Below are positions 11,297 through 41,795 of a stretch of 64,000 bases of DNA, piece by piece. A program made the position numbers and the translations under genes. How positions within the stretch are numbered: the first letter of the stretch is position 1; each line of letters opens with the position of its first letter. Under the pieces are notes generated by a model, which saw nothing but the letters and a program-made list of their open reading frames with translations, ran no database searches and was not told the origin of the DNA. This stretch comes from Burkholderiales bacterium (GTDB lineage Bacteria > Pseudomonadota > Gammaproteobacteria > Burkholderiales > JAHFRG01): positions 1 through 64,000 of the forward strand of contig DASZZH010000015.1 in assembly GCA_035543335.1 (NCBI GenBank), written 5' to 3'.

Positions 11297-12232
11297 CTAC
11301 CAGATATTCGTCCCGAAATGCCGTCGGTACAACACCCCGATCTCCGCGCGGTTTGCGCTGTGGTTCTGGCCGCCACGCCGTGCAATTTTAATCGCTCCCA
11401 TCAACGAAGCAAGCCGCCCAATGGTCCCCCAATCCATACCCTGGGCAATCCCGTAGAGCAAGCCGGCGCGGTAGGCATCGCCGCAACCGGTGGGATCCAC
11501 CACTGCCTCCGCTTTAACGCATGGAATCTCGATGCGTTTACCCCCGGCATAGATCAAGGAGCCGCAAGCACCCAATGTGACAACCAGGGCTTTGACAAGT
11601 TTTGCCAGTTCCTCAATTTTTTTGCCAGTCTTCTCCTGCAAAAGCTGCGCTTCGTAATCGTTCGCCGTGACAAAATCGGCTTGATTGATGAAATTGAGCA
11701 ATTCCCCGCCGTCAAACATCGGCAAGCCTTGGCCGGGATCGAACACAAACGGGATGCCCTGCTCATGAAATTCGCGCGCATGCTGCAGCATGCCCTCGCG
11801 GCCGTCGGGTGAAATGATGCCCAGTTTCACGCCATCCGCATCCGACACATGATTGTAATGTGAGTAGTTCATCGCGCCTGGATGAAACGCGGTGATTTGG
11901 TTGTCGTCGAGGTCGGTGGTGATGAAGGCCTGCGCAGTAAACGTGTCCGGCACCTGGCGCACGTGCTTTTGCGAGAGCTTGAGCTTCTCCAAGCGGTAGG
12001 CATAAGGCTGATAGTCTTCGCCCACGGTGGCCATGATGAGCGGATCGCCACCCAGCACTCTCAGGCTGTAAGCGATATTGCCGGCGCAGCCGCCGAATTC
12101 GCGGCGCATGTCCGGTACCAGAAACGAGACATTAAGAATGTGAATCTGCTCGGGCAGAATGTGGTTCTTGAAATAATCCTTGAACACCATGATGGTGTCG
12201 TAGGCGATTGAGCCGCAAATCAGCGTACGCAC
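11297..12232 (-). CDS. PfkB-family sugar/nucleoside kinase
   Basis: 311 aa from a GTG. PfkB fold: GGCAGNIAYSLRVLG near residue 48 is the first signature, and VVDPTGCGDAYRAG near 250 is the second, holding the catalytic Asp. Similar proteins in betaproteobacteria are annotated adenosine kinase or carbohydrate kinase. It lies about 80 bp downstream of the DUF692 gene on the same strand but has no obvious link to it. Substrate not deducible. Confidence 0.85.
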   Translation of the reverse strand: MRTLICGSIAYDTIMVFKDYFKNHILPEQIHILNVSFLVPDMRREFGGCAGNIAYSLRVLGGDPLIMATVGEDYQPYAYRLEKLKLSQKHVRQVPDTFTAQAFITTDLDDNQITAFHPGAMNYSHYNHVSDADGVKLGIISPDGREGMLQHAREFHEQGIPFVFDPGQGLPMFDGGELLNFINQADFVTANDYEAQLLQEKTGKKIEELAKLVKALVVTLGACGSLIYAGGKRIEIPCVKAEAVVDPTGCGDAYRAGLLYGIAQGMDWGTIGRLASLMGAIKIARRGGQNHSANRAEIGVLYRRHFGTNIW

Positions 12233-12314
12233 ACTAGCCCCTCGGGCTTAAGGAAAATTAAACGGGGGTAATGATAACACGGCACCTTGATCGCACTCCG
12301 GGCCGTGTCGTCAA

Positions 12315-13172
12315 TTACATCGCGGCTTTTTGCAGTATTGGCTCTGCGATTCGCCGGGCGTGATTAAGTTCGGCGAGGAGGTCTTTGAGAGGGGGGATAT
12401 TATCGTCGCGCTCGATCATGGTCGAGACCGGGCCGAAGCGTCTGACGGCTTGCTCATAGAGCGCCCACACCGGGTCAATGATCGGATGGTCATGGGTATC
12501 CACGATGTAATTTCCACAGTTCTGATGCCCCGCCAGATGAAATTGCTGCACCCGCTCGATGGGGATGCCGTTGAGATAGTCCTCGGGGTCAAAGCCGTGG
12601 TTGAAGCTGCTCACATAGATGTTGTTGATGTCGAGCAGGATTAAGCAGTCGGCTTGCTCTGCGATATGGGTTAAGAACTCCCACTCGGTGAGTTGGGACT
12701 GCCTATAGGTGACATAGCTTGAGACGTTTTCCAAAAGAATCCTTCTGCCCAGGTAATCCTGAACCTGCTTGACTCTATCTGTCACATGCTGAATGGCTTC
12801 CTCGGTATAGGGTAGCGGCATCAAATCATGCAGGTTTAATCCGCCTACGCCCGTCCAGCATAAGTGGTCGGAGATCCATTTGGGCTCGATTCGGTCGGCC
12901 AAGGATTTAAGTTGTTTGAGGTAATCCGGGTTTAAGGGATCCGAGCCGCCAATCGAGAGCGACACGCCATGCATGACCACCGGGTAATCGGCACGAACCC
13001 GATCCAGGTAATACAAGGGTTTGCCACCTGGCACCAGGTAGTTCTCGGACAGAACCTCAAACCAATCCACTGCTGGACGCGTAGACACAATCTCCTCGTA
13101 GTGGGGGATGCGCAGACCCAGGCCAAAACCTAAATACTCGGGCTTGCGGGATTTGGGAGTAAGGCGGGACAT
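12315..13172 (-). CDS. bufB: DUF692/MNIO enzyme, bufferin maturase type
   Basis: 285 aa. Visible family motifs: [14 protein letters not shown] at the N-terminus, [44 protein letters not shown] and HLAGHQ with THDHPI, which supply the His/Asp/Glu ligands of the multinuclear iron site. Established: MNIO enzymes oxidise Cys residues of small Cys-rich precursors; with bufferins the products bind copper. Here two Cys-rich precursors lie directly upstream on the same strand, so this enzyme very likely acts on them. A DUF2063 (BufC) partner, usual in such loci, is not found nearby. A hairpin terminator sits between the precursor genes and this gene. Confidence 0.88.
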
Positions 13173-13180
13173 GGGGAGTG

Positions 13181-13215
13181 AAAGAAAACGGACACCTGGT
13201 CATGAAGTGCCCGTT
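13181..13215 (-). terminator. Terminator-like hairpin between bufA copy and bufB
   Basis: On the minus strand AACGGGCAC (13215-13207) pairs with GTGTCCGTT (13195-13187), followed by TTCTTT. The same motif (AACGGACACC with GGGCGTCCGTT) follows the orphan precursor at 41467-41510, so the two genes share a downstream element by descent. Here it would lower bufB transcription relative to the precursors. Confidence 0.7.
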
Positions 13216-13223
13216 ATATGAGA

Positions 13224-13343
13224 TTACGAACCTTTAATTTGCTTACAAGCCTTGGCGTCCAGCGCAACAAAGCCTTGACCCTTGCAGACGTCAACGCCGG
13301 CGCAGGCTAAGGCAATGCCTGTGAGTTTCTTAACTGCGGTCAT
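13224..13343 (-). CDS. Internally deleted bufferin precursor, 39 aa
   Basis: Starts MTAVKKLTGIALA, the same 13 residues as the orphan precursor at 41.5 kb, then jumps to CAGVDVCKGQGFVALDAKAC and a short tail. It keeps Cys at 14, 20 and 33 with spacings of 6 and 13, exactly those of the last three Cys of the full-length precursors; about 44 codons (rest of signal peptide plus the first three core Cys) are missing. The frame is clean, with a stop and terminator. Without most of the signal peptide it probably stays in the cytoplasm, if made. Either a relic or a minimal cytoplasmic variant. Confidence 0.7.
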   Translation of the reverse strand: MTAVKKLTGIALACAGVDVCKGQGFVALDAKACKQIKGS

Positions 13344-13451
13344 GGTTCAGTCTCTAATTGAAATACTCAAGTTGAATGGGATGGATCGATAACTTTACCA
13401 CTTGTTTCCCTGGCCGGCTTTAAGAGACTTTAGTTATGGACCCGGCTGGCT

Positions 13452-13697
13452 TCACTTAGCTTTCGCGCACTCATCGGCCCCCATAAACACAAAGCCATGC
13501 CCTTTGCAGGTGTTTTGCCCTTTGCAGGAGCTGGTCGCGGTCTTGCAATCACTCAAGCCCTTGCAGCCGTTGACGCCGGCGCAGGCCACTTTGCCCGAAG
13601 ATCCGTAGCTTCCTGATTCAGTAGCACACCCGGCAACAAACACGCTGGCGGCTGCCACTGCCAATGCGATGCCCGAAATTCTCTTAACTGCGTTCAT
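13452..13697 (-). CDS. bufA: Bufferin-type Cys-rich precursor peptide
   Basis: 81 aa, preceded by AAGGAGG. N-terminal signal (MNAVKRISGIALAVAAAS) ending VFVAGC, which also reads as a lipobox, so it may be a lipoprotein. Six core Cys at 39, 45, 51, 58, 64 and 77 in CKG/CKTA repeats (NGCKGLSDCKTATSSCKGQ). Small exported Cys-rich peptides encoded beside a DUF692 enzyme are the substrates of MNIO enzymes; bufferins buffer copper in the periplasm. A TATAAT lies about 180 bp upstream on the minus strand without a clear -35. Exact bufferin subfamily not determined. Confidence 0.82.
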   Translation of the reverse strand: MNAVKRISGIALAVAAASVFVAGCATESGSYGSSGKVACAGVNGCKGLSDCKTATSSCKGQNTCKGHGFVFMGADECAKAK

Positions 13698-13901
13698 GGT
13701 ATAACCTCCTTAAGATTAGATTGGAACCCATACCGGAATTAAGGCCTTTTGTTAGCCCCAGGCCTTGTGTGGGCAGACCGGCTTCCCGCACCCCACCCCA
13801 TTGCCTTGATACGTAATGCAAAAGGAAGCGGATGTAGCCAGACAACTGTTGGTCGCATCACAGGGGCTCACCTTACATTATAGGAAACGGTTTTGTGCCG
13901 T

Positions 13902-14279
13902 CTAGGCAAACAGCACCAGCGCCCAGACCAAGGGGACGTTAATCAAACTGATAAACACGGCGGCGCTGCCTAAGTCCTTGGCACGCTTGGCCAAGGGATG
14001 CCGCTCCATGGAAATGCGGTCCACCACCGCTTCGATGGCCGAATTGACCAGCTCGACAATCAAGACCAGCAGCACGCTGGCGAGCATCAGCGCGTGACCC
14101 ACGCCGCTCGCCGGGAGCCACCCGGCGAGCGGTATCAAAATAACGGCGAGCAGGACTTCCTGGCGAAACGCGGTTTCGTTTTTGAATGCAGAGACAAGCC
14201 CGTCGCGCGAATAAAGGAATGCGTTCCAAATGCGGGCGAGGCCGGTTTTGCTTTTCTGCGGGTGGTCCGGGGTTTCCAT
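13902..14279 (-). CDS. dgkA: Diacylglycerol kinase
   Basis: 125 aa, the normal size. N-terminal amphipathic stretch then three membrane helices; the family signature ELVNSAIEAVVDRI holds the catalytic Glu and Asp. Recycles diacylglycerol to phosphatidic acid in the inner membrane. Starts 11 bp after a 50-aa small gene and downstream of tpx, probably one transcript. Confidence 0.95.
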   Translation of the reverse strand: METPDHPQKSKTGLARIWNAFLYSRDGLVSAFKNETAFRQEVLLAVILIPLAGWLPASGVGHALMLASVLLVLIVELVNSAIEAVVDRISMERHPLAKRAKDLGSAAVFISLINVPLVWALVLFA

Positions 14280-41537: not shown

Positions 41538-41795
41538 TTATTTGGCCTTGGCCTTGGCTTTGGCGGCATTGCAATCTTTTTCGGTCATGGCGACGAAGCC
41601 CGTGCCCTTGCAGCCGTTCTGGCCCTTGCAGGCGTTCTTGGCGGTCTTGCAGTCGCTCTTGCCCTTGCAAGCGTTCACGCTTTCACAGTGCATTTTGCCT
41701 TCGGCCGCCACGGCTTGACCTACGCCGGCAGTAACAAACATGCCGGCCGCGGCAACGGCCAAAGCAATACCTGTGAGTTTTTTAACAGCGGTCAT
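41538..41795 (-). CDS. Orphan bufferin-type Cys-rich precursor
   Basis: 85 aa, preceded by AGGAGA. Signal peptide MTAVKKLTGIALAVAAAGMF ending near AVAA. Six Cys at 37, 43, 49, 56, 62 and 75, the same spacing (6, 6, 7, 6, 13) as the precursor at 13.5 kb, with CKGKSDCKTAKNACKGQNGC. C-terminal KAKAKAK tail. No DUF692 enzyme is nearby, so BufB at 12.3 kb would have to modify it in trans. Similar small proteins are also seen without an enzyme. Confidence 0.8.
   Translation of the reverse strand: MTAVKKLTGIALAVAAAGMFVTAGVGQAVAAEGKMHCESVNACKGKSDCKTAKNACKGQNGCKGTGFVAMTEKDCNAAKAKAKAK

Follow-up and report, generated by a model that had tools for sequence, protein, structure and literature searches.

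A bufferin-2 system in a Burkholderiales bacterium whose bufB and bufC genes appear to have been separated by an operon split

How does a bufferin-type MNIO enzyme work when no gene for its partner protein lies beside it? This question is raised by a locus in the window, i.e., the 64,000-nucleotide stretch of contig DASZZH010000015.1 from a Burkholderiales bacterium that was analyzed here. MNIO enzymes and their partners have been described as encoded together almost without exception (PMC12668002). For this locus, the initial annotation offered three options: a self-sufficient MNIO, a partner encoded elsewhere, or a different mode of leader recognition. Judging from sequence comparisons, we suggest, with a probability of about 0.85, that it belongs to a bufferin-2 (BufA2-type, "captophorin") system in which the partner gene bufC is encoded in trans after an operon split, bufB having been lost from the old site. 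A rare split of the operon is our best reading of why bufB and bufC are separate.

The MNIO gene, the full precursor and the shortened copy that had been annotated between 12315 and 13697 are all present, on the minus strand. The enzyme gene, bufB (12315-13172, minus strand), encodes an MNIO (DUF692) bufferin maturase of 285 residues. The initial annotation had proposed DUF692-subfamily HMMs as a check, and these place the product in the BufB equivalog (NCBIfam MNIO_BufB, NF050167; 397.6 bits, cutoff 310). It scores 283.5 bits against the HvfB equivalog, under the cutoff of 360, and thus lies outside the HvfB subfamily. Pfam PF05114 matches it with an E-value of 1.4e-116, and structure matching finds the MNIO fold, with similarity to 3bww, TglH and MbnB. 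The full precursor, bufA2 (13452-13697, minus strand), encodes 81 residues and is a BufA2 by the NCBIfam definition (NF050166; 80 bits, cutoff 60). Its six core cysteines (39, 45, 51, 58, 64 and 77) have the spacing 6-6-7-6-13 that had been noted before, and a seventh, the lipobox Cys24, lies in a hydrophobic leader that reads as a lipoprotein-type signal ending in VAGC. The shortened copy (13224-13343, minus strand) has 39 residues and three cysteines with spacing 6-13. It matches BufA2 partially, at the C-terminus (28.9 bits, cutoff 60), and falls outside the BufA2 definition, its signal core being lost. The leader is joined to Cys1-Cys2 and this in turn to the C-terminus (repeats D1 and D2). 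Thus, the description as a bufferin-type locus with an MNIO and precursors holds, except that the short copy looks less like a functional precursor than like a product of deletion; as its sequence reads, it is probably non-functional, with no working signal peptide.

Two genes outside the system flank these three, a PfkB-type kinase gene on the left (11297-12232, minus strand), as had been read before, and a diacylglycerol-kinase-like gene, dgkA, on the right (13902-14279, minus strand). Both were placed by synteny with contig C93 of G081 and contig C41 of G036, two congeners. In agreement with the initial annotation, the window holds no DUF2063 gene: a genome-wide search with PF09836 has matches only on two other contigs, C28 and C25, and tblastn of both DUF2063 proteins encoded there finds nothing in the window under E 0.2.

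A window with no partner gene would suit a BufB that is self-sufficient, any bufC elsewhere being a leftover with no role here, and MovX has been reported to be active with no separate partner (PMC12452194). However, MovX carries a fused winged-helix/RRE domain, whereas the window BufB shows no extra or fused recognition domain in Pfam, where the match spans residues 16-276 of 285. In the HvfABC system, HvfB yields no product without HvfC, which it also requires for its active iron state (PMC13419390).

The window genome is a draft of 2.25 Mb in 41 contigs, 98.5% complete with 0% contamination. Genome-wide profile searches, of the kind that had been proposed for DUF2063, detect two MNIOs and two DUF2063 proteins, HvfC on C28 and a second protein on C25. 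HvfC is part of a complete hvfABC (oxazolin-type) locus (L001:1030-2981, minus strand; NCBIfam). The C25 protein, 261 residues long, is encoded by an orphan gene (C25:24772-25554) and scores 68.1 bits against PF09836 (cutoff 27.2). Against the HvfC equivalog it reaches 36.4 bits where the cutoff is 142, and so it is not HvfC. Instead, it is 76% and 69% identical to the proteins encoded directly after bufB in G081 and G036, respectively, and by these sequence comparisons it is the BufC orthologue. Its size is that of a BufC, about 260 residues with DUF2063 and an RRE-like domain, the fold being read from the 76%-identical G081 orthologue. The model of that orthologue, folded in place of the C25 protein (mean pLDDT 95.7), resembles NGO1945 (3dee), TglI and RRE proteins, which indicates the DUF2063 plus RRE make-up of PME-type 1 partners. 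Adjacency to an MNIO gene, which is usual but not strictly defining for BufC, is seen in G081 and G036 and is absent in the window genome. The full-length bufC on C25 strongly supports the option of a partner encoded elsewhere; the results support neither a self-sufficient MNIO nor a different leader-recognition mode.

HvfC is itself intact on C28 and might be thought to serve BufB as well. However, HvfC resembles the C25 protein only remotely (26% over 126 residues), and the genome has a clear orthologue of BufC. Each family also selects its own substrates, as FonBC, an HvfA-type system, left an NACKG motif unprocessed (PMC12668002). We therefore regard such partner cross-talk as extremely unlikely and favor the C25 protein as the partner.

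The relatives show how the two genes are normally arranged. In both congeners compared, G081 and G036, bufB and then bufC follow an ABC-transporter gene, with ssb after them, and the two overlap by ATGA. The initial annotation had held that a BufC gene next door in related genomes would count against its proposal, and both congeners have one. In an order sample of 200 genomes, all 23 other genomes with a BufB-type match of at least 371 bits have an adjoining BufC-type match. Among the nearest named relatives, BufC adjoins BufB in 79 of 80 (75 strictly, and four as overlapping long frames). The BufB and BufC trees are congruent, both placing the near relatives in the order (G081, G036), the window genome, G172 and G073.

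Two other genomes touch on this linkage. In SPGG2 (L134:4631-7735; G200), bufA2-bufB is followed by an ABC exporter gene in the place of bufC, and the genome has no match to PF09836. A full-length BufC profile finds a C-terminal half of BufC cut by a contig end, plus an N-terminal remnant, on other contigs, and SPGG2 was therefore rejected as a truly partnerless case; PF09836 used by itself can overlook a BufC. It may be a second case of a bufB/bufC split. In G084, a BufC-like gene lacking its N-terminal part (L214:5655-6254, plus strand) has no adjoining BufB and is likely what remained once bufB had been lost.

The old site on C25 can be recognized directly. Its flanks are collinear on both sides with the bufBC locus of G081 and G036, and of the two genes only bufC is there. 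Within the 180 bp before bufC is a bufA-leader remnant, MPVAVKKLTSMALAA, followed by a stop (alignment score 45-46, shuffle maximum 32). Downstream of this remnant lies a stretch similar to the bufB 5' end of the window and to that of G036 (0 of 1000 shuffles each), which includes the exact 12-mer CCATGTCCCGCC at the start of bufB. A mini-ORF of 11 residues (MSRPRSRTQTA) runs in frame from this bufB start, and its TGA overlaps the bufC ATG (ATGA). To go by these alignments, the scar has the form expected after an in-frame deletion inside bufB, and the mini-ORF may preserve translational coupling to bufC. Scans for promoters and terminators did not rise above chance, and the orphan bufC showed no obvious promoter.

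At the window site, the segment with bufA2, the short copy and bufB (12236-13900) is absent from both congeners, in which pfkB and dgkA are 31-35 bp apart. Because of this short spacing, the three genes most simply arrived here, by insertion or relocation, in this lineage. Since the start of bufB is present both here and on C25, a duplication with a later loss accounts best for the arrangement, and this is the order of events that we infer. With a draft genome in 41 contigs, it could be asked whether bufB and bufC truly adjoin in the organism and were parted in assembly or binning. However, both loci lie within long contigs (72 and 313 kb) with flanks collinear with the congeners, and the diverged scar before bufC is unlike the product of a misjoin, so that an artefact is scarcely credible. 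We retain the operon split as the probable source of the arrangement.

If the split is real, is the separated bufC still in use? For bufC, pN/pS is 0.24 between the window genome and G081 and 0.30 between it and G036, against 0.24 between the operon copies of G036 and G081, a rough test since dS is near saturation. For bufB, the values are 0.12-0.14. Residues unique to one bufC number 35 in the window genome against 30 and 14 in the congeners. Given the value of 0.30 with G036 and these 35 unique residues, mild relaxation of bufC is conceivable. Nevertheless, as far as so rough a test at near-saturated dS can tell, bufC on C25 is under purifying selection. An intact and constrained bufC, and a pair kept in nearly all near relatives, speak against the self-sufficient BufB with a leftover partner gene described above, which we consider very unlikely. 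It is equally improbable that BufB of this lineage is partner-independent and that the orphan bufC has been kept for some other use, e.g., to assist a different enzyme or to mask signal peptides.

A further possibility is a system in decay, in which the bufA remnant, the short bufA2 copy and the separation of bufB from bufC are stages on the way to loss and nothing is modified any more. The short copy, the bufA remnant and the bufB deletion at C25 would fit, as would the N-truncated orphan bufC in G084, another genome of the same order. However, the genome has intact copies of bufB and bufC together with two complete bufA2 genes, and pN/pS is low for both bufB and bufC. We hold decay to be highly doubtful.

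The second of these complete bufA2 genes stands alone at 41538-41795 (minus strand; 81.2 bits against the BufA2 profile) and has an ordinary Sec signal with no lipobox. It sits between ispG-like and hemA-like genes, a position that is kept in G081 and G036, and is likely a further substrate in trans. G036 has two more stand-alone lipoprotein-type BufA2 genes (L212:2316-2612 and L213:2169-2423, both minus strand) that are related to the window precursor. Since stand-alone BufA2 genes are found in the window genome, G081 and G036, precursors in trans are common to the genus. The VAGC lipobox had been called unusual for such a protein. This was not borne out, as a crude lipobox pattern matched 20 of 101 collected BufA2-like precursors, and a share of about 16% has been published (PMC12452194). 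A lipobox is thus common in BufA2, and at this frequency it was rejected as the mark of a special function.

Elsewhere in the window genome, a 175-residue frame on C36 near 93.4-94.0 kb (L075:1447-1974, plus strand) has a BufA2-like leader, LTGIALATAAAGMF, CRGH/CRT cysteine repeats and a Tyr/Pro-rich tail, YWYYCADANAYYPYVQECPGGWQQV. It has no match in Pfam, and is a possible extended or fused precursor. A weak BufA2 match on C39 was discarded, as it appears inside the coding region of a translation factor and is not a bufferin.

From these observations and by analogy with related systems, we propose the following course. In the ancestral state, bufA, bufB and bufC formed one operon. The bufA2/bufB segment would then have come between pfkB and dgkA in this lineage, and an in-frame deletion would have removed bufB from the old site, while bufC stayed. 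In the cytosol, BufB and BufC (DUF2063 plus RRE) are expected to form a heterodimer, in which BufC would grip the precursor via its signal-peptide leader. This would parallel HvfABC, where the signal peptide is the leader (PMC13419390), and preliminary data have been reported for the bufferin signal peptide as part of the BufB-BufC recognition sequence (PMC12452194). BufB would then oxidize core cysteines to copper-binding 5-thiooxazoles. Modified peptides would finally be exported by Sec, the window copy lipid-anchored and the 41.5-kb copy soluble. The sequence comparisons show what the genes are, their orthology, the ancestral order, the scar and the constraint on bufC; the complex, its chemistry and a role in copper handling are assigned to these proteins by analogy.

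Compared with known systems, this one most resembles the bufferin-2 (Buf2/BufA2, Buf_6/12Cys) clusters, which share the six-cysteine BufA2 with a Sec-type signal, the BufB-type MNIO and a BufC-type DUF2063 plus RRE partner in the genome. Tandem precursors, stand-alone precursors and lipoprotein signals have all been described for bufferin-2 (PMC12452194). It differs from these clusters in the place of bufC, which does not directly follow bufB but occupies the ancestral site on a different contig. With the HvfABC/oxazolin and EGKCG clusters (captophorins), one of which is present in full on C28, it shares the enzyme and partner superfamilies, but the precursor motif is xxCKG here as opposed to EGKCG, and the MNIO and partner subfamilies differ. 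The MovX-type MNIO likewise has no adjoining partner gene, but has the fused recognition domain that the window BufB lacks, and here a partner gene is present in the genome. SPGG2 is alike in having bufA2-bufB with no adjoining bufC and a BufC fragment on another contig, and unlike in that its BufC is cut by the contig end and an ABC exporter gene follows its bufB.

This is, then, a known kind of system in an unusual gene arrangement. Since the partner was found on C25, the lack of an adjacent partner gene does not count as evidence that an MNIO is self-sufficient, and the whole genome needs to be searched. The window genome provides a natural split of a pair that has been described as nearly always encoded together (PMC12668002). 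HvfB and HvfC that were made separately and then mixed were inactive, whereas some heterodimer formed when they were co-expressed (PMC13419390). In light of that result, the distant bufB and bufC loci offer a natural experiment on whether a single transcript has to encode both proteins.
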